A stretch of 22,431 nucleotides of DNA from a virus. The first letter of the stretch is position 1, and each line of letters starts with the position of its first letter. The notes beneath the pieces are model-generated. The model was given only the letters and a program-made list of their open reading frames with translations, was not told where the DNA came from and searched no databases. The stretch lies in IMG/VR virus record IMGVR_UViG_3300009108_000056, positions 1-22,431 of that record. One strand, 5' to 3'. This document shows positions 11,642 through 18,825 of the stretch, piece by piece. The translations under genes were made by a program, and so were the position numbers.

Positions 11642-11832
11642 GTTGTTTCGGATTCATCGCCTTTGATTTTCTTTTGTTCATCAATACAGGCTTGTGCCAT
11701 AACTGATATTTTTCTAAGTGTAGTATGTTCCTTTTCTGCAACTTCAGTAGGCTTATGCTTTGCAAATGCTAGTTCATACCAATTCATAATGTTATGATAA
11801 TCGCTAATGCTTAGTTCAATTTCCATACTCAT
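11638..11832 (-). CDS. Small helical hypothetical protein
   Basis: A 64-residue protein, start ATG 11832..11830, overlapping the TGA of the terminase nuclease gene as ATGA; a second ATG two codons in is possible. It is almost entirely helical and charged (ISDYHNIMNWYELAFAKHKP, then a Lys/Glu-rich helix), ending in a disordered acidic tail. No motif is recognised. Coupling to the terminase nuclease suggests a packaging accessory or co-expressed regulator, which is inference from position only. Confidence 0.65.
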   Translation of the reverse strand: MSMEIELSISDYHNIMNWYELAFAKHKPTEVAEKEHTTLRKISVMAQACIDEQKKIKGDESETT

Positions 11833-12500
11833 TTTGGAAACATCACTTGAACGCTTGTTGCTGTGGTATAGTTGGGAACACCTGTGCCAAACATATTGTC
11901 AGATTGCTCTGTGAACTTCTTTGTGACCACCTGCATATCTTGGTGCATACCATCATTGCTTTTGATAAAATTTCTGCCAATGAAACAGGCTAACATTAAT
12001 GCCATTACAGTGTCGTCATGTTCGTTGCCCTCTGCTCGATAACTTGCGTTTCCTGCTTCTGTTATGACTTCACTGAAAATTGAAATTTGTCTTTTAAGTT
12101 CGTCAATGTCCTTATTGCTTTTCTTAGGAAACTTGATACGATTATTTTGAAACATTCTTGCCAACCATAATACCATTTGATTCTTAGGCATGACACGACC
12201 TGTATTGATCTTTGATTGGTCTTTGACTTCTCTTGTTGTAAAGACAGGAATTACATTAGGAATATGATGATGATATTTCAGTTCCTCAAAAACGTGTTCG
12301 CCTGTGTTGTTTATCTCTACACTGTAATAATCAAACGGTTTGGTATTGTGTATGTTTGCAATCAGGTTTTCAACGTCAAGATAATTTCTGCCTAGCCAAG
12401 TCTTAACACCAATAACATAGACATTATTGTTCTTGATCTCTATACCTACAAAAGCAAAGCTATCTTTCTTCTTGCCACTGTCTAGCCCTGCAATCCTCAT
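11829..12500 (-). CDS. Large terminase nuclease domain (separate gene)
   Basis: A 223-residue protein matching the RNase H-fold nuclease half of large terminases. The first strand carries the first metal-binding Asp (IAGLDSGKKKDSFAFVGIEI, Asp7), the second acidic site is in YYSVEINNTGE (Glu62), and the third is EGNEHDDTVMALMLA (Asp162/Asp163), the usual D-D before a final helix. Two Mg/Mn ions held here would cut the concatemer at the start and end of packaging. The family is normally C-terminal to the ATPase in one chain; here it is an independent gene in the same frame but separated by several stops and a different gene. It starts at ATG 12500..12498 with an ATGA overlap. Confidence 0.8.
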   Translation of the reverse strand: MRIAGLDSGKKKDSFAFVGIEIKNNNVYVIGVKTWLGRNYLDVENLIANIHNTKPFDYYSVEINNTGEHVFEELKYHHHIPNVIPVFTTREVKDQSKINTGRVMPKNQMVLWLARMFQNNRIKFPKKSNKDIDELKRQISIFSEVITEAGNASYRAEGNEHDDTVMALMLACFIGRNFIKSNDGMHQDMQVVTKKFTEQSDNMFGTGVPNYTTATSVQVMFPK

Positions 12501-12688
12501 TTTATTAACGCCTTTAAGTTGTGCATAATTTCTTCAAGCAAATCTTGTTGTGCTGATACTAATTTTTTTATCTTTTCAATTTCCGTCTGCTGAACTTCTA
12601 CTATGTGATCAATCACTTCAAGATGTTGTGCATTTGATTCCTGTGCGTTTGCTATTTGAAATAGCGTTGGTAAGTCAGTTATTTCCAT
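12497..12688 (-). CDS. Coiled-coil protein between the two terminase halves
   Basis: A 63-residue protein read in a different frame from both terminase halves. From about residue 8 it is one long amphipathic helix (LEVIDHIVEVQQTEIEKIKK, then QDLLEEIMHNLKALIK) with heptad-like spacing of I, V and L: a likely coiled coil that could oligomerise. It starts 14 bases before the end of the ATPase gene and overlaps the nuclease gene by ATGA, so all three are probably translated together. It may tether ATPase and nuclease or replace the linker of a one-chain enzyme. That role is a hypothesis. Confidence 0.7.
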   Translation of the reverse strand: MEITDLPTLFQIANAQESNAQHLEVIDHIVEVQQTEIEKIKKLVSAQQDLLEEIMHNLKALIK

Positions 12689-13565
12689 ATTCTTCTACCT
12701 CAAAATCTTCTAAAGCTTCGTTTGATATAACACCAAATATTGATGAACGTGATGAAGTGAACTGACACCTGTATTCTTGATCAACGTCAATGTCTGTGCG
12801 TTTCAGTTCTTCATTCATTTCTTGCTGTGTGTAAATCCAACCAATAGCATTTGTAAAATCATATTGAATTTTCTTATAGTCATTTTCGTGCATGGCTAGT
12901 TCGTAAAAGAATCCACGCTGACCTCGTGGCGTTGATACTAGAAAGACATCTGACTTGTTTGTGTGTAAGATTGGTTCAAGTGCGTCCAGCACAACACTAT
13001 CATCAACAAGCCCGAAATGTGCTGCTTCGTCAACTACCACTGCTTTGATTTTTGTTTCTCCTCTAATGGCTTCTGAATTACTAGGCTTCCCTTCAATTTC
13101 TGTTCCGTTGTCGAGGATAATATTCAAGTCATGTTTGTCGTCTTTTACTGTCCATCTAATTTCATTGAACAGCATTTTCAATCTGTTCATAACTGTCTTG
13201 GTTGTCTTTTCCCTTGTTCCTGCTATGATCATAATCTTGCCACCAACATATTTGTGAAAGCAGTGATACTGCACTATTCTTAGAACTATCTCTGTTAAGC
13301 CAATTTGCCTTGACTTGTTAATGTGAAACTTAACCTGTCTGTCTTCCATTGATTGTGTGATTAGGTCTAACTGATGAGGCATGAATTTCATTGGTTGCAA
13401 CGTGGCAGGGTGTTTTGGTAATCCGACAACGTGAGAGAAACAGCAGTTGTTTTTTCTATTTACCTTACCACAAAAAAATTTTAATCTTGCTATGTCAATT
13501 TGAGCTGTCTGATTTTGATAGCTGTCCTGAAACATTGGTTTTGACATTCGATCCATCAAGTCCAT
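12675..13565 (-). CDS. terL: Large terminase ATPase subunit (packaging motor)
   Basis: A 296-residue protein with the ASCE ATPase half of TerL. The P-loop is HINKSRQIGLTE at residues 81 to 92: the Lys usual before Thr (T4-type SRQxGKT) is Leu90 and a Lys sits at position 84, like the relocated Lys of lambda gpA (KSARVGYS). Walker B is IKAVVVDEAAHF (Asp179, Glu180) and the coupling motif is FLVSTPRG (211 to 215). It would pump DNA through the portal. The chain ends where the nuclease would start; the nuclease is encoded at 11829..12500. Start ATG 13565..13563 overlaps terS by 71 bases; Met4 or Met7 are alternatives. Confidence 0.85.
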   Translation of the reverse strand: MDLMDRMSKPMFQDSYQNQTAQIDIARLKFFCGKVNRKNNCCFSHVVGLPKHPATLQPMKFMPHQLDLITQSMEDRQVKFHINKSRQIGLTEIVLRIVQYHCFHKYVGGKIMIIAGTREKTTKTVMNRLKMLFNEIRWTVKDDKHDLNIILDNGTEIEGKPSNSEAIRGETKIKAVVVDEAAHFGLVDDSVVLDALEPILHTNKSDVFLVSTPRGQRGFFYELAMHENDYKKIQYDFTNAIGWIYTQQEMNEELKRTDIDVDQEYRCQFTSSRSSIFGVISNEALEDFEVEEYGNN

Positions 13566-13950
13566 GCTTTCTCAATAATTGGGTTGGAGCATCTCTTAAA
13601 AGACGAATTAAATCAATAGAAGTTTCTTTCTTTAATGCTTCTGCTTCAAGCTTATCTCTTACTGCTGTGTTTGTGTCATTTGCTATAAGCTCACACTGCC
13701 TGATTGTCCTTAGCAACCTGTCTTTCGTTAATAGAATTTCAGTTGCTATCAAGTCATTTCTTTCCACTTGAAGTGTTATCTTATCCTGTTCGTATATCGC
13801 ATGACAGTGCCAAGCAAAAGTTCTGTCTGCCATGTTCATGTGTTGTTTGATTTCAGTTGGTGTTGATCCTATTGTAAAATATCTTCTTATCTCGTTTCTA
13901 ATTGTTTCCAACTGTTGTTTCGTATTGCGTTTTTTCGCCAATGAGTGCAA
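13495..13950 (-). CDS. terS: Small terminase subunit (TerS)
   Basis: A 151-residue protein directly before the large terminase. The N-terminal part has a helix-turn-helix shape (TIGSTPTEIKQHMNMADRTF) for binding the packaging site, then a long helical oligomerisation region (KDRLLRTIRQCELIANDTNT, EALKKETSIDLIRLLRD), and a basic/polar tail. It would recognise viral DNA and start TerL. The frame begins at TTG 13950; a TTG three codons later gives MAKKRNTKQQ, a more natural N-terminus and a better distance (about 24 bases) from the promoter-like element. A 10-base tandem repeat lies across the first start. The family call rests on order, size and HTH. Confidence 0.7.
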   Translation of the reverse strand: MHSLAKKRNTKQQLETIRNEIRRYFTIGSTPTEIKQHMNMADRTFAWHCHAIYEQDKITLQVERNDLIATEILLTKDRLLRTIRQCELIANDTNTAVRDKLEAEALKKETSIDLIRLLRDAPTQLLRKHGLDGSNVKTNVSGQLSKSDSSN

Positions 13951-13965
13951 TAAAATGCAATAAAA
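13946..13965. repeat. Perfect 10-base tandem repeat TGCAATAAAA x2 before terS
   Basis: TGCAATAAAA occurs twice head to tail at 13946..13955 and 13956..13965, immediately upstream of (and touching) the small terminase start. Short iterations next to terS are the kind of site bound by small terminases or by a regulator. Two copies could also arise by chance slippage in AT-rich DNA. Confidence 0.5.
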
Positions 13966-13980
13966 CTAATAGAACTATTT
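13966..13980 (-). promoter_or_regulatory. Promoter-like element AAATAGTTCTATTAG
   Basis: Minus-strand AAATAGTTCTATTAG sits on the TAG stop of the ParB-PRTase gene and shares ATAGTTCTATTA with the element at 5406..5420. It lies 15 to 24 bases upstream of the two possible terS starts and probably begins the packaging transcript. Confidence 0.5.
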
Positions 13981-14808
13981 TGCCATTCTGTCTGCTTCGT
14001 GCCTATCCCAAGGAAATATCACATACTCTGTGCCAATCGTTTCAGTAGCAAATGTGACATCTGTTGGCGTGGCTACACCTTTTCTTTTGAATAGGAAATA
14101 GAATCTGGTATTCTTCTTTACCTGTGACTTTATTTTTTTGTATGTTTTGCCACTGTCATAAATGTCGTCTATTATCAAGTCGCCTGATAGGTCATCTACG
14201 AGTATTTTTTCAACGCCAAGCTTGTCTGCCAATAAACGTGCAGGAACAAGACCACCACGCGAAACAGTGGATATTGACTTAACTTTATAATTTATTTCCT
14301 TTGCAAGTGTGTTAATGTATTCTTCAATTTTTATCCATGTGACAGGAACAATGGCAGTTGATTCGACTTCTAGTTTTGGATCATACTTCAACGCTGTTAG
14401 CAGGGCTATTTCCTTTGCTGGAATGTTTGTTTGTTTTTGCAGTATGTCAAGAGGAATTGATTTTTGTAAAACTGCTAGAACTGATCCTGTTTCAACAGGT
14501 GTTAGATAACCACGTTCTCTGTTGATTCTAACTGTCAGAATTTTGGCTTTGTCGTTATCCACATCTTCAACAATGCAAGGAACTTTTTTTGCACCTAGTT
14601 TTTTGAGTGCTAGATACCTGTGTTCCCCATCAATTATGATACCTTTTTTGTTGATAATTATACTGCCATAGAACTTGTTTTGCTGTATGTCGTCCTTTAA
14701 CGATTCAAATATTTTGTTTGGCATGAAGTTTGGATTGTAGTTATTGGGTTTTACCTCGTCAACATCTTTCCATACCACCTCGTTTGAAAATTCTACTTGT
14801 TTAGGCAT
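13975..14808 (-). CDS. ParB-like domain fused to purine-type phosphoribosyltransferase
   Basis: A 277-residue fusion. Residues 1 to about 140 are a ParB/Srx-like domain: VDEVKPNNYNPN, then IIIDGEHRYLALKKLGAKKV with the D-G-E-H-R signature at 60 to 64. Residues about 155 to 277 are a type I phosphoribosyltransferase: VSRGGLVPARLLADKLGV (183 to 199), the PRPP-binding loop LIIDDIYDSGKT (211 to 222, Asp214, Asp215, Asp218) and a C-terminal YVIFPWDRHE resembling the Gpt (xanthine-guanine PRTase) ending. It overlaps dpdA by 16 bases, so it is translated with the deazaguanine cassette. A purine PRTase could salvage or process preQ0 or guanine, with ParB giving DNA or nucleotide binding; that link is inference. 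Confidence 0.8.
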   Translation of the reverse strand: MPKQVEFSNEVVWKDVDEVKPNNYNPNFMPNKIFESLKDDIQQNKFYGSIIINKKGIIIDGEHRYLALKKLGAKKVPCIVEDVDNDKAKILTVRINRERGYLTPVETGSVLAVLQKSIPLDILQKQTNIPAKEIALLTALKYDPKLEVESTAIVPVTWIKIEEYINTLAKEINYKVKSISTVSRGGLVPARLLADKLGVEKILVDDLSGDLIIDDIYDSGKTYKKIKSQVKKNTRFYFLFKRKGVATPTDVTFATETIGTEYVIFPWDRHEADRMAK

Positions 14809-15566
14809 TGTTTCATCTCCTCATGTTCATTAATTTGTCTTTCCATTTCAAGAAGTCTGTGTATTGCATAACGCTGTAAATCAAGATTCTGTTGTTGGTT
14901 TATGCGATATGGCAAGGCTTTTGCATTTGTGACCATGCCTGTATATGATACCGAACCATTGTATGGCGATCTTCTGCTTACCATACTCGAATCAACAGAG
15001 TGTATGCGTTCAGTTCCTATTCCCATTATTACACGAAAATTGGTTAAGCCTAACAAGTGTATTTTCTTATCTTTTGGTATTATCTCAAACATTTTTTTGG
15101 TGTAGTTAACCATTTCTCGATCATTGAATTTTGCTTGTGCATAGCCTGAAAGGGCAACATAATCTGAATTTTTACAATAATAGATTAGATGTTCTATTGG
15201 ATCAAGTTTCCCTGCCACTCTATGAAATACAGGAATGACATCAAGTCCTGCCTTTTTCATTGTCTTAAAATTTTCAAAACCTTGTTCAGCGTTTCCAATT
15301 ACGTCAAGGTTAATCATTGAGTATAACCTATTTTTATTGGCTTTGCAATAAGCAATATACTCATCTAAATCAATTTCTTTTTTTAGTGTCCATGCTGAAT
15401 ATGCACCCGAATCAAGAAGAATGTTTGCCTTTGGGTTAAGACCTAAAATATAATCAACATACTGACTTTTTCTTTCATACCAATAGGAAACAAGATGATT
15501 TTCTACACCCACATCAACGAAGTTTTGAACTCCCTGTTTCTCATAATCAACGAAAAATATCTTCAT
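14793..15566 (-). CDS. dpdA: DpdA-like DNA 7-deazaguanine transglycosylase
   Basis: A 257-residue TGT-superfamily protein. NILLDSGAYSAW (Asp52-Ser-Gly) corresponds to the base-recognition D-S-G-G loop of tRNA-guanine transglycosylase; PVFHR and YVALSGYAQAKF are the next barrel strands; IHLLGLTNFRVIMGIGTERI resembles the H-x-LG-x-(T/G) strand; and IHSVDSSMVSRRSP carries Asp192, the candidate nucleophile. It is much shorter than tRNA TGTs (about 370 or more) and lacks their C-terminal zinc site, as expected for phage DpdA, which exchanges guanine in DNA for preQ0 or a derivative. It overlaps folE by 20 bases and sits with queC, queD and queE. Which DNA sites are modified cannot be told. Confidence 0.85.
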   Translation of the reverse strand: MKIFFVDYEKQGVQNFVDVGVENHLVSYWYERKSQYVDYILGLNPKANILLDSGAYSAWTLKKEIDLDEYIAYCKANKNRLYSMINLDVIGNAEQGFENFKTMKKAGLDVIPVFHRVAGKLDPIEHLIYYCKNSDYVALSGYAQAKFNDREMVNYTKKMFEIIPKDKKIHLLGLTNFRVIMGIGTERIHSVDSSMVSRRSPYNGSVSYTGMVTNAKALPYRINQQQNLDLQRYAIHRLLEMERQINEHEEMKQCLNK

Positions 15567-16074
15567 TCTTTATCCTCGCTAGAAACTCTAATTTCGCATT
15601 CTGCTCTTGCATAAAACCGTCCAAGACCTGTGTGTTCACTGTGATTGTGCTAGTGTTAATTCCCCTGCCATACATACAGGTATGAACACAGCTAACAGCA
15701 ACGCCTATTCCTTTCGGGTTTAAGATTTCCTTAATCTTGTCTGCAATTTCCTGTGTCACGTTTTCTTGAAGTGTTGGCTTTGACGCTATTGAATCAACCA
15801 ATCTTTGAAACTTTGATAGTCCAAGTATTTTGCCATTAGGAATATAGGCAATATTACAGAATCCAAAGAATGGTAGTAAGTGATGTTCGCAAAACGAAAA
15901 CAGTTTGATTTTATTCAACACTATCATTTCGTCAGTAATCGTGTCAAACACTGTAAATTTATTATAAGCACGTTTAGATTCTAATTCCTTTGAAAAATTA
16001 TCAACTCGTGCAGTTGTATCAAATGGAAAGTTGCTACCACCTAATAATTTAAAATATTCTTTAGATGTGTTCAT
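15547..16074 (-). CDS. folE: GTP cyclohydrolase I
   Basis: A 175-residue type IA GTP cyclohydrolase, which opens GTP to dihydroneopterin triphosphate, the first step of preQ0 synthesis. The zinc and catalytic motif is FSFCEHHLLPFFG (Cys62, His64, His65), followed by ILGLSKFQRLVDSIASKPTL, ENVTQEIADKI and the closing VHTCMYGRGI (His131, Cys133, Arg137). The N-terminal extension common in the family is short. The reading frame overlaps queC by 14 bases and dpdA by 20. Archaea commonly use other GTP cyclohydrolases (MptA/FolE2 type), so a bacterial-type FolE would point to horizontal origin if the host is archaeal. Confidence 0.93.
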   Translation of the reverse strand: MNTSKEYFKLLGGSNFPFDTTARVDNFSKELESKRAYNKFTVFDTITDEMIVLNKIKLFSFCEHHLLPFFGFCNIAYIPNGKILGLSKFQRLVDSIASKPTLQENVTQEIADKIKEILNPKGIGVAVSCVHTCMYGRGINTSTITVNTQVLDGFMQEQNAKLEFLARIKNEDIFR

Positions 16075-16807
16075 TTTTTAATTCCTCAATATTTTTAGAA
16101 AATTCAATTTCTTTAACGTTTCCAGAAAAAATATGTTTGTGTTTTTCTATGTAATTAGTAGAAACAAATGGGTCTTTCATACATTTTTCACTTTCAATAT
16201 TTTCTAGCTTGAAAATTAATGCTCTACTAAAACATTGCCAACATTCGCCACATGGAAATTGTTGTGTAAAATTATAACAAGAAACGGTTTTTAATATTTC
16301 GTTTTTTGTTGCAAGTTTATTTGTTAAAGCATATTTGACCAAATTTCTTTTACTAAGATTTAATTCTACTATTGGAAATCTAACTTTAATTGAATTTTTT
16401 ATGAATGGCGACAATACATAACTTAAAAGATCAGAAGTAGCCTGTCTAAAATGTTCATTTTTGTCTGTTGAATTTGGATAATCGTCTTCCCATGTAGAAC
16501 CTAACCATATTTCGTCAGGTAAATCTAAACTTCCTAGCAATACAGTAAAAACTAAATTTCTTCCAGAAATGTAAATTGATCCTTTATTCACTTTTTTATT
16601 TTTAGATAACAAATAATGATCTTCGTCTATTAGTTTCACTTCTCTTATTTTAACAAAAGAGGGCAAACTTTCAATTTCTTTTTGTTCTGAGATACTTCCA
16701 TGTTTAAAATACATGGCAGAGATTTCTGCATTTGGATATTTCTTTTGTGCATAACGATATAATAAAAAACTGTCTAACCCACCTGAATACAAAATAGATA
16801 TTTTCAT
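16061..16807 (-). CDS. queC: 7-cyano-7-deazaguanine (preQ0) synthase
   Basis: The ATG at 16807..16805 is chosen because it overlaps the queE stop as ATGA and gives MKISILYSGGLDS, the usual QueC N-terminus (248 residues); an upstream ATG at 16849 would add 14 unrelated residues. The PP-loop SGGLDS is at 8 to 13, the SGRNLVF strand (usually PGRN) at about 81 to 87, and the zinc site is Cys177, Cys186, Cys189 and Cys192 (CYN...PCGECWQC). It converts carboxydeazaguanine plus ammonia and ATP to preQ0. The gene is strikingly AT-rich (12 and 14 G+C per 60 in the lines at 16561 and 16321, against 27 in queE at 17161), suggesting a separate origin. Confidence 0.93.
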   Translation of the reverse strand: MKISILYSGGLDSFLLYRYAQKKYPNAEISAMYFKHGSISEQKEIESLPSFVKIREVKLIDEDHYLLSKNKKVNKGSIYISGRNLVFTVLLGSLDLPDEIWLGSTWEDDYPNSTDKNEHFRQATSDLLSYVLSPFIKNSIKVRFPIVELNLSKRNLVKYALTNKLATKNEILKTVSCYNFTQQFPCGECWQCFSRALIFKLENIESEKCMKDPFVSTNYIEKHKHIFSGNVKEIEFSKNIEELKNEHI

Positions 16808-17397
16808 CGCATTTCTAATATCTTGTGCTGTTGTATCATTATTTTCCAATCGGAAAGATTATGGTGTGCTATCATTTTGGTTATTCTTATGATGTCTGAA
16901 TCAACAGGTTGAAAGGTCTTAACGCCTTTGAAATTATTAAAATAGCCAACATAGAATTTCAAGTCCTTTTCGTTTGTCACAACACATTTGACTTCGTGTG
17001 TATTTTCAAGAATCTGATCACTGAAATTCATTTTTGAATAAAGCATTTTGGGCGAACAGCAAACCCAATCAATTTCTTTTACTATTGGCGAATAATACAT
17101 TCCACTCGTTTCAATCTGTGTCTTAATTCCGTTTTGTTTTAGTAGCCTGACAAGTTTTGTGAGGTCTTGTTCTAACGGTTCGCCACCTGTTATGCAAACC
17201 CACTTTGCATTGAATTGGTTTGCTCTTTTGACAATGTCTTCTTCTTTTGTTGTTGCGTCTTTTTCTTTCCATGTGTATTTGGTATCACAAAAATAACAAC
17301 CAACTGCACAACCCTGCGTTCTAACAAAATATTGCATGACACCTGTGTTCTCTCCCTCGCCTTGAACAGAGTAAAATTCTTCGTTAATCGCTAACAT
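16804..17397 (-). CDS. queE: 7-carboxy-7-deazaguanine synthase (radical SAM)
   Basis: The start at ATG 17397 gives MLAINEEFYSVQGEG, the standard QueE N-terminus, 197 residues, overlapping queD by 14 bases; ATGs at 17409 and 17436 are in-frame alternatives. The iron-sulphur cluster motif is CAVGCYFC (Cys30, Cys34, Cys37 in this numbering), followed by the SAM-binding WVCITGGEP. It rearranges carboxytetrahydropterin to carboxydeazaguanine. Downstream conserved blocks include IETSG and DWVCCSPK, with a C-terminal WKIMIQQHKILEMR (the family often has W-x-x-S-x-Q-x-HK). All residues expected for activity are visible. Confidence 0.92.
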   Translation of the reverse strand: MLAINEEFYSVQGEGENTGVMQYFVRTQGCAVGCYFCDTKYTWKEKDATTKEEDIVKRANQFNAKWVCITGGEPLEQDLTKLVRLLKQNGIKTQIETSGMYYSPIVKEIDWVCCSPKMLYSKMNFSDQILENTHEVKCVVTNEKDLKFYVGYFNNFKGVKTFQPVDSDIIRITKMIAHHNLSDWKIMIQQHKILEMR

Positions 17398-17731
17398 ATT
17401 CCATTCCATACTTGTGAGTTTCTTGAATATAGACATCTACTTTTTTGTTTAGTCCTTTGCCGACTTGTTGTGACAGGTATTCTACCAACTGTTCTGTCTT
17501 GCCAAGCCCAAGCGTGTCTGTGATATTTTTCCCTGCCATGTTTGCAAGTATTTTTTCTGTTTCAAGCTTAACGGTTTTGAAATCAATAAACTCGTCATTT
17601 AGCAGTGGAACAGTAATTATGATAACTGAATCATGTTCGTGTGGTGTTTCACAGGTTTTATCGACAAGATTTTGTTCATTGGGAATTTGGTGTAAGAAAC
17701 TCAATTTGGTCTTATAATGGATTTTACGCAA
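17384..17731 (-). CDS. queD: QueD-like 6-carboxytetrahydropterin synthase, catalytic dyad apparently missing
   Basis: A 115-residue 6-pyruvoyl-tetrahydropterin synthase-fold protein. Zinc ligands His14, His31 and His33 and catalytic Cys27 are present (FLHQI, CETPHEH), as are Asp50-Phe51, the GKTEQLVEYL helix (usual PT-x-E) and Glu104 in IQETHKYGMEY. Aligned without gaps to E. coli QueD from its IIDF motif, the catalytic Asp70-His71 (LDH) correspond to Ala66-Gly67 here, so the proton-relay pair seems lost. Either the enzyme works differently or its step is supplied by the host. The TTG start at 17731 is the only plausible one; the first gene of the deazaguanine cassette. Confidence 0.8.
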   Translation of the reverse strand: MRKIHYKTKLSFLHQIPNEQNLVDKTCETPHEHDSVIIITVPLLNDEFIDFKTVKLETEKILANMAGKNITDTLGLGKTEQLVEYLSQQVGKGLNKKVDVYIQETHKYGMEYVSD

Positions 17732-17758
17732 TGAAATTAGAAATAGAAGTAGCCATTA

Positions 17759-17773
17759 GAGAACTAATTTAAA
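17759..17773 (-). promoter_or_regulatory. Possible TATA element for the deazaguanine cassette
   Basis: Minus-strand TTTAAATTAGTTCTC directly after the oligo-T terminator and about 28 to 41 bases before the queD TTG. TTAAATTAG is also found before the metalloprotease gene at 19526. A weaker match to the TTCTATTA element used elsewhere. Confidence 0.3.
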
Positions 17774-17804
17774 AAAAAAAGAAAAGGTGTGAATTGTTAT
17801 TCAC
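17770..17804 (-). terminator. Hairpin plus oligo-T terminator ending the metalloprotease transcript
   Basis: On the minus strand GTGAATAACAATTCAC (17804..17789) folds into a perfect 6-pair stem with a 4-base loop, followed by CACCTTTTC and a run of ten T. The TAA of the upstream gene lies in the loop, so translation end and terminator coincide. It separates the protease block from the deazaguanine cassette. Confidence 0.65.
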
Positions 17805-18036
17805 TTTTGGTTTGTTCTATTTTGTTGAGTTCAGCGTGTGTTGCAAAGAATTTTGATACCACGAGTTTTTCAAGTGGTGTTTCAAAGGTTATTCTTTCAA
17901 CGTCTGTGCGATCTTCTTTCAAAATGAATTTGTCGCCTGTCACAGATGTTGCTGATACCTCAACTTGTTTTTCGTGCTTTGCGTTTTCAGTGACCTTAAT
18001 TCTAAGGTGCTGAACGTCAGGTTCCATGTTTGACAT
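17797..18036 (-). CDS. Small hypothetical protein (79 aa)
   Basis: A 79-residue charged protein from ATG 18036..18034, 21 bases after the metalloprotease stop; its stop codon lies in the terminator hairpin. It alternates short strands (LRIKVTEN, KQVEVSATSV, KFILKED) with a C-terminal helix (ATHAELNKIEQTKSE), suggesting a small beta barrel or sheet plus helix. No known family is recognised. It is the last gene of the unit carrying two extracellular-type metalloproteases and could be a partner or inhibitor of them, which is a guess from position. Confidence 0.65.
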   Translation of the reverse strand: MSNMEPDVQHLRIKVTENAKHEKQVEVSATSVTGDKFILKEDRTDVERITFETPLEKLVVSKFFATHAELNKIEQTKSE

Positions 18037-18057
18037 TAAACGTTGTTAATGCGTGAC

Positions 18058-18825
18058 TTAGATAAACTTTGAATCAACAATCACGTTTCTTTGTGTGTAG
18101 GGCTTGTGACCACCAAAACCATCTGCACCGTATAGTTTTATCATCATATCAATGTCCTTTTCAGTAACGTGCTTTTCCTGATCTTCAAAAACATTAATGC
18201 TGAAATACATGATTGGATCATAATCACATTCTTGAACTCGACAATCTGATGTGACATAGTAATGCTCAATTCCAAGCCCATGCCCAAATTCGTGCAATAT
18301 GATATTTCTTAAGTCATTATCAGGTATCTGTTTCCATACTGTTTCTATTCCTGACGTTGATTCTGTCATTGATTCGCCAAGTTGTATTCCTATTCGTTTT
18401 TCTATTGTGTAGAGATCAACTTCAACCCAAAAATAATATCGCCATGACTTGCTAAAATCAAAGCCTGTGCGACCTACACTGTGATTCGCTTCGCCATAAG
18501 GAAAGTTCACAAATATTGTGCAGTGTGGATAATCTTCAACTGTTAATTTATCATGTTCAATAAAATCATATTCTGTAATATTCATAACCCAATTTCCACC
18601 TCTTGTTTCAAGCTTATCCTGCCATTCATTGATTGCAGAATGTGTCAATACTGATATTTCTTCTGCTCGTTGTTCGGGCAACATTATGCAGACCTGTGGA
18701 TTATATTTGTGCTGAACACCCATTGTCCTGTAATAATCTGCATAGGCTTCTGCTGTAAATAATCCAATCACTGCGAATGTGACAATTAGACAAATTGCAA
18801 ACCAAATTAAAAGTGTAAATTTCAT
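18058..18825 (-). CDS. Membrane-anchored or secreted matrixin-type metalloprotease
   Basis: A 255-residue zinc protease. Residues 4 to 23 form a signal peptide or anchor (TLLIWFAICLIVTFAVIGLF), with AEAYAD as a possible cleavage site. The catalytic motif is HEFGHGLGIEHY: His178, Glu179, His182, His188 (HExxHxxGxxH), and the Met-turn is DPIMYF (Met206), defining a metzincin close to matrixins (M10). Four other Cys could form disulphides outside the cell. Archaea lack murein, so a protease that cuts S-layer or surface proteins is a plausible release or entry enzyme. The start ATG 18825..18823 abuts the stop of the Cys micro-gene. Confidence 0.85.
   Translation of the reverse strand: MKFTLLIWFAICLIVTFAVIGLFTAEAYADYYRTMGVQHKYNPQVCIMLPEQRAEEISVLTHSAINEWQDKLETRGGNWVMNITEYDFIEHDKLTVEDYPHCTIFVNFPYGEANHSVGRTGFDFSKSWRYYFWVEVDLYTIEKRIGIQLGESMTESTSGIETVWKQIPDNDLRNIILHEFGHGLGIEHYYVTSDCRVQECDYDPIMYFSINVFEDQEKHVTEKDIDMMIKLYGADGFGGHKPYTQRNVIVDSKFI

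Follow-up and report, generated by a model that had tools for sequence, protein, structure and literature searches.

A probable viral 7-deazaguanine DNA-modification cassette with an exchanged queC gene, located in an island of exchanged modification modules

Phages of the 9g/CAjan type encode a five-step gene set for 7-deazaguanine DNA modification (FolE, QueD, QueE, QueC or Gat-QueC, and DpdA), and archaeal tailed viruses of the Druskaviridae, such as haloviruses HVTV-1 and HCTV-5, carry a preQ0/G+ pathway, with deazaguanines having been measured in HVTV-1 DNA (PMC8651126, PMC8306585). In bacterial Dpd systems, a DpdA resembling tRNA-guanine transglycosylases (TGTs) is accompanied by a partner of the ParB superfamily, DpdB, a ParB-like ATPase that is used in insertion but is dispensable in some clusters (PMC12839542). 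A cassette of this known kind is present in IMG/VR virus record IMGVR_UViG_3300009108_000056, a single record analyzed here over its 22,431 bases (the window), where queD, queE, a queC-like gene, folE, and dpdA are followed by a gene in which a ParB_N domain is fused to a phosphoribosyltransferase (PRTase; Table 1). New are the type of QueC, the ParB_N-PRTase fusion, and exchange at two nested levels, that of queC and that of the entire module. It appears probable that the locus represents a viral 7-deazaguanine DNA-modification cassette in a pathway-exchange island, inside which queC forms a second, nested exchange point, and that it operates by the mechanism set out below.

The window shares with the 9g/CAjan-type systems the five-step gene set and a DpdA of the same family (phrog_887; 9g, Seurat), but has a QueC of another subfamily, a compact operon, the ParB_N-PRTase gene, no Gat domain, and a QueD without the Asp-His dyad. 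Menderavirus phages of Stenotrophomonas possess a QueC-like protein 39% identical to that of the window, which likewise bears the motif TDKN (see below), together with GTP cyclohydrolase and QueE nearby, a TGT-like protein, and an annotated phosphoribosyltransferase; however, the 403-aa TGT-like protein is not detectably related to the window DpdA (phmmer), the cluster includes a myo-inositol-1-phosphate synthase (MIPS), and the host is bacterial. The Druskaviridae differ in having a canonical YPDC QueC, a QueF-type gene, and genes that are spread out. The CmoA/CmoX/CmoY 5-carboxymethylcytosine system (PMC12783734), which concerns cytosine rather than guanine chemistry and is not found in the window, occupies the same genomic slot in one relative (L021), there too with ParB_N alongside.

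The initial annotation had described queD, queE, queC, folE, and dpdA as a consecutive run with overlaps of 4 to 20 bases. All five genes lie where it placed them, on the minus strand and with matches to the expected families, and the run is indeed consecutive, although the QueD/QueE overlap amounts to 53 nt with the called starts (a later ATG as the start of QueE would shorten it), the others being 4, 14, 20, and 16 nt, and a sixth gene, encoding the ParB_N-PRTase, had been overlooked. The same arrangement is found again in relatives L002, L003, and L004, and is therefore not a matter of chance. Family matches give strong support to the assignment of FolE, QueE, and DpdA, moderate support to that of QueC, and weak support to that of QueD. 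The motifs CEHH and HTC of FolE and CxxxCxxC of QueE are intact, as had been stated.

Table 1. Coordinates and content of the cassette, its surroundings, and comparable features of other viral loci (L numbers).
Feature	Coordinates	Strand	Evidence or content
Operon	17731 down to 13975	-	queD, queE, queC-like, folE, dpdA, ParB_N-PRTase, head to tail
queD-like, 6-carboxytetrahydropterin synthase	17384..17731	-	TTG start; Pfam PTPS 2.9e-5
queE, radical SAM 7-carboxy-7-deazaguanine synthase	16804..17436	-	TIGR04322 2.7e-35; phrog_2076 2.3e-33
queC-like, divergent viral TDKN subfamily, exchanged gene	16061..16807	-	phrog_1550 1.7e-25; Pfam 4.7e-15
folE, GTP cyclohydrolase I	15547..16074	-	Pfam 1.6e-45
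dpdA, predicted DNA-guanine transglycosylase (9g-type)	14793..15566	-	phrog_887 2.5e-36; 9g DpdA by phmmer; AlphaFold (AF2) model
ParB_N fused to 6-oxopurine (xanthine/guanine-type) PRTase	13975..14808	-	ParB_N 2.8e-6; phrog_8995 phosphoribosyl transferase 1.3e-16
Exchanged segment	16057..16807		no nucleotide match to L002 or L003; both flanks match 93-96% (blastn)
Modification island	13495..18057		between matrixin-like gene (18058-18825) and terminase genes
Small-terminase-like open reading frame (ORF), island edge	13495-13950
Island content, L015 and L017			ParB_N + C5-methyltransferase
Island content, L019 and L032			Asn-synthase-like + C5-methyltransferase
Island content, L021	4558-7556		ParB_N + CmoA (TIGR00740 1.4e-45) + Asn-synthase-like + C5-methyltransferase
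TET-associated glycosyltransferase (PF20691)	L020 1756-2616; L022 1-2317; L035 577-1452; L036 242-1117		L020 and L022 by Pfam; L033-L036 by similarity
Island content, L037 and L038			ParB_N fused to methyltransferase-like domain
Island content, L016, L018, and L041			no recognisable modification gene
MIPS-TDKN QueC loci	L024 4378-6840; L027 4493-6786; L029 4836-6397; L010 8257-10741

Exchange of queC and the TDKN subfamily

Among the window, L002, and L003, queC is only about 48% identical at aligned codons, while lying between flanks that are 93-96% identical. The breakpoint is the queC start codon; in the last 100 nt before this ATG the window is identical to L002 at 95 and to L003 at 94 positions, and over the initial 100 nt of the gene at 48 and 51, respectively. 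The gene has a GC content of 26.9%, compared with 34-38% in the adjacent genes, and across the full alignment its product shares only 21-23% identity with the QueCs of the nearest viral relatives. The likely start is the ATG at 16807, which forms an ATGA overlap with queE, and the longer annotated N-terminus represents read-through of the queE end. A common N-terminus, MENNDTTAQDIRN, considered as a sign of partial queC homology, was rejected on the same grounds.

L002 (149-763) carries a QueC that is probably of the ancestral type and shares 87% identity with the QueC of L004 (1038-1652), a more distant relative. Both have FPDN in place of YPDC; the final Asn of FPDN recurs in phage 9g Gat-QueC (YPDN), a protein that failed to complement E. 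coli queC (PMC6884629). In L003 the slot holds a canonical YPDC QueC. An approximately unbiased (AU) test rejects a single clade for the four QueCs (p 3e-74) but not one uniting L003 with L002/L004 (p 0.25); a separate origin of the latter two types is indicated because their proteins share 40% identity within DNA that is 93-96% identical. L003 also diverges in the 5′ portions of folE and dpdA, and recombination there is therefore patchy. The more distant relatives L039 and L040 encode QueE, FolE, DpdA, and the ParB_N-PRTase (L039 also QueD, L040 beginning inside queE), with only tiny ORFs in the about 330 bp of the empty queC slot; such cassettes would deliver 7-carboxy-7-deazaguanine (CDG) unless the host supplies QueC.

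The window QueC retains the SGGLDS ATP loop, the RN pair, and a C-x8-CxxCxxC zinc site, so that the part of the initial annotation that considered its motifs intact holds for the ATP loop and the zinc cysteines but not for YxQxHxxE (which reads FKHGSISEQKE and is varied across the clade) or the substrate motif YPDC, replaced throughout the clade by TDKN. A C-terminal extension absent from canonical QueC is a further feature of this clade, in which the window protein groups with those of Menderavirus, L024 (44% identity), L027, L028, and L030 (support 96/95; 100/99 with a Vibrio phage protein included), separately from all canonical and Gat-QueC forms in the tree. Comparison of the predicted QueC model with the PDB gives Z scores of 17.2 for Cap9, 15.9 for QueC, and 15.6 for QatC, values too close to tell these folds apart; none of the QatC/Cap9 partners (qatA/B/D, CD-NTase) is found among the window genes, and PADLOC calls the protein QueC only. 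In several large phages a MIPS gene, in most cases with a small ORF behind it that looks HAD-like by eye, lies directly upstream of TDKN QueC, where it could possibly serve an inositol-related decoration of deazaguanine, and separate PRTase-like genes hold the same position in L028 and L030. QueC-like proteins without the canonical zinc cysteines are encoded by Flavobacterium phage immuto (L050 5004-5885) and Rhizobium phage RHEph04 (L053 2489-3325).

DpdA and its ParB_N-phosphoribosyltransferase neighbor

The 257-aa DpdA is linked by phmmer to the 9g and Seurat DpdAs (E about 1e-15 in a small set). Pfam gives no match and a sequence search of the PDB finds nothing, whereas in a fold search with the AlphaFold model (predicted local distance difference test score 83) nearly all of the top 50 PDB matches are TGTs. 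The D-S-G loop and candidate nucleophile of DpdA noted in the initial annotation lie at D52 and D192 (in SVDSS), both conserved in an alignment of relatives. With DpdA resembling the 9g type in sequence and TGT in predicted fold, insertion of 7-deazaguanine into the viral DNA remains the best reading; together with the conservation of the operon, these features leave the predicted modification pathway well supported, and disguise of the DNA may be its purpose.

The ParB_N-PRTase gene overlaps dpdA by 16 nt and is the terminal gene of the operon in the window, L002-L005, L039, and L040. Its PRTase half is nearest to the structures of GpT-1 and xanthine-guanine phosphoribosyltransferase (XGPRT), which act on 6-oxopurines; in this fusion it differs from the ParB-superfamily partner of bacterial DpdA. 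A scan with an alignment of the protein yielded 80 viral loci. ParB_N genes from outside this virus group numbered 73, and for 29 of them the locus also contains a DpdA, almost always immediately upstream, although this fraction overstates the general rate because the genes were collected through their similarity to a protein that is itself linked to DpdA. Under a strict criterion (dpdA end at a gap of -60 to +500 nt from the ParB_N start) the count is 23 of 73, most of the remaining six being larger overlaps due to extended ORF starts. The idea of a ParB partner is not new, since a DpdB-like role has been suggested earlier for ORF1 of mycobacteriophage CRB2 (PMC6392294, PMC12839542).

The modification island in relatives and the viral host

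In relatives chosen by their terminase, matrixin-like genes upstream and small terminase/terminase genes downstream are kept wherever visible, and the genes between them vary. Where the terminase is 70-85% identical, the whole cassette is replaced by other modification modules or by none (Table 1), with a minimum of seven module changes on the terminase tree (21 rows). By analogy with the CmoA system, the L021 module is likely to carry out 5-carboxymethylcytosine amide hypermodification. Diversifying pressure thus seems to act on the site as a DNA-modification island in which queC forms an inner swap point, and the pattern resembles an arms race over DNA disguise. In L022 the glycosyltransferase is accompanied by a further large ORF and by a PIG-L deacetylase, a gene set that suggests sugar-type base hypermodification.

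Two matrixin-type metalloproteases (PF00413; 18058-18825 and 18909-19526) are conserved upstream of the island in this virus group. The large terminase (TerL; 11829-13565) is split into an ATPase (12675-13565) and a nuclease (11829-12500) with a 63-aa ORF between, and the same split occurs in relatives such as L004, L015, L021, and L005.

An archaeal host, assumed in the initial annotation, is plausible on sequence grounds but not proven. TerL has many distant matches in phage records, and the lowest E-value among the GenBank terminase matches listed belongs to the Nitrososphaera provirus Nvie-Pro1 (3e-15; profile match 6.6e-28). The Nvie-Pro1 portal gave no match, the window portal and capsid had none in 50,697 phage records, and portal and terminase alignment scans of genome contigs found no cellular or proviral relatives.

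Proposed pathway, its alternatives and implications

It is proposed that FolE would convert GTP to dihydroneopterin triphosphate, and QueD (or host QueD) and QueE would carry the pathway on to CDG. The TDKN QueC would adenylate the CDG carboxylate and pass it to an amine, giving as the final base an amide, a nitrile, or a less common amide, which DpdA would exchange for guanine at chosen sites of the replicated viral DNA. ParB_N may act as a DNA- or nucleoside triphosphate-binding partner of DpdA, as has been said of DpdB in bacterial Dpd systems, and the fused PRTase may salvage the guanine freed by DpdA, driving the exchange forward. DNA altered in this way would withstand host nucleases.

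The product of QueC is the step on which readings diverge. The initial annotation took the base to be preQ0 itself, a conclusion that the sequence does not warrant; QueC is non-canonical, its YxQxHxxE motif and the motif holding Tyr131 are lost, and it belongs to a separate viral clade, so that the product cannot be read as preQ0. It can tentatively be suggested, although this must be considered doubtful, that TDKN QueC is a ligase joining activated CDG to an amine other than ammonia, thereby giving the DNA of these viruses, of Menderavirus, and of other large phages an undescribed amide-linked 7-deazaguanine. Synthesis of plain preQ0 by the cassette, through a fast-evolving QueC in which TDKN has replaced YPDC without a change of product, is quite possible while falling short of an even chance; it would fit the retained ATP loop, RN pair, and zinc cysteines, a fold resembling QueC as well as Cap9 and QatC, the canonical preQ0-type QueC brought in by the L003 exchange, and the lack of QueF, ArcS, or a GAT partner in the window. 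The C-terminal extension argues otherwise, however, as do the substitutions Y35A and Y131A, which abolish the activity of E. coli QueC at positions not conserved in the TDKN clade (in YxQxHxxE and the Tyr131 motif), and QatC, which has lost the same motifs and no longer produces preQ0 (PMC13329287), showing that such remodeling can accompany loss of this synthesis. An arrest of TDKN QueC at 7-amido-7-deazaguanine (ADG), so that the DNA would bear dADG, appears unlikely; ADG is known to arise as an intermediate in QueC catalysis, and in the Campylobacter phages CP220 and CPt10 every dG is reported to be replaced by dADG (PMC8306585), but the QueC of the related phage CP20 retains FPDC and lies outside the TDKN clade, and nothing specific ties TDKN to ADG.

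The drop in GC content and the failure to find a close second copy of the window queC allele in IMG/VR could suggest that the foreign gene is an assembly chimera. This is very improbable given that the replacement is gene-exact, beginning at the ATGA overlap and keeping the 14-nt folE overlap intact, and that L003 carries a different, equally exact replacement while the slot is empty in L039 and L040. Modification of host tRNA (queuosine or archaeosine) instead of viral DNA would employ an identical precursor pathway and a TGT fold, yet is extremely unlikely, as DpdA has no CxCxxC zinc site of TGT in its short sequence, closely resembles the 9g enzyme, which failed to stand in for TGT in E. 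coli (PMC6884629), and is encoded next to ParB_N at a site that holds DNA methyltransferases and TET-associated glycosyltransferases in relatives.

Several points, in addition to the sampling of the ParB_N set, weigh against the mechanism as proposed. Phage 9g DpdA alone, with no dedicated partner, gives a restriction-resistance phenotype in E. coli (PMC6884629), and no ParB_N gene adjoins dpdA in that phage; among the PADLOC matches listed for 21 proteins at E up to 1 (25 of 28 families), none links the ParB_N proteins to DpdB. In an alignment with nine other viral (phage) QueDs, the window QueD keeps the zinc-binding His (H14) and CxxxHxH (CETPHEH), but the catalytic Asp-His dyad present in those nine is absent from the window, L004, and L039, and the host may therefore need to supply the QueD step. 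The queD-like gene is kept in L003, L004, and L039, and the family without the Asp-His segment is conserved in the virus group (L004 114-461; L039 264-611). Near-identical flanks are available from only three genomes (the window, L002, and L003), complemented by L004, L039, and L040, and in a 22 kb fragment finishing enzymes could sit beyond the contig ends.

If the proposed reading is right, the choice of modified base is set at a single gene position while the rest of the viral genome stays constant, such that the disguise could be changed in one recombination step, and L002, L003, and the window constitute natural near-isogenic variants that are testable, with predictions for each QueC type. 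Should the TDKN QueC be a ligase, swapping queC alone would change the chemistry of the viral genome. The ParB_N partner suggests that DNA-modifying enzymes unrelated to one another have an accessory factor in common, which here would include its own domain for guanine salvage, and the TDKN subfamily hints that already cultured phages (Menderavirus) harbor a deazaguanine chemistry not yet described.

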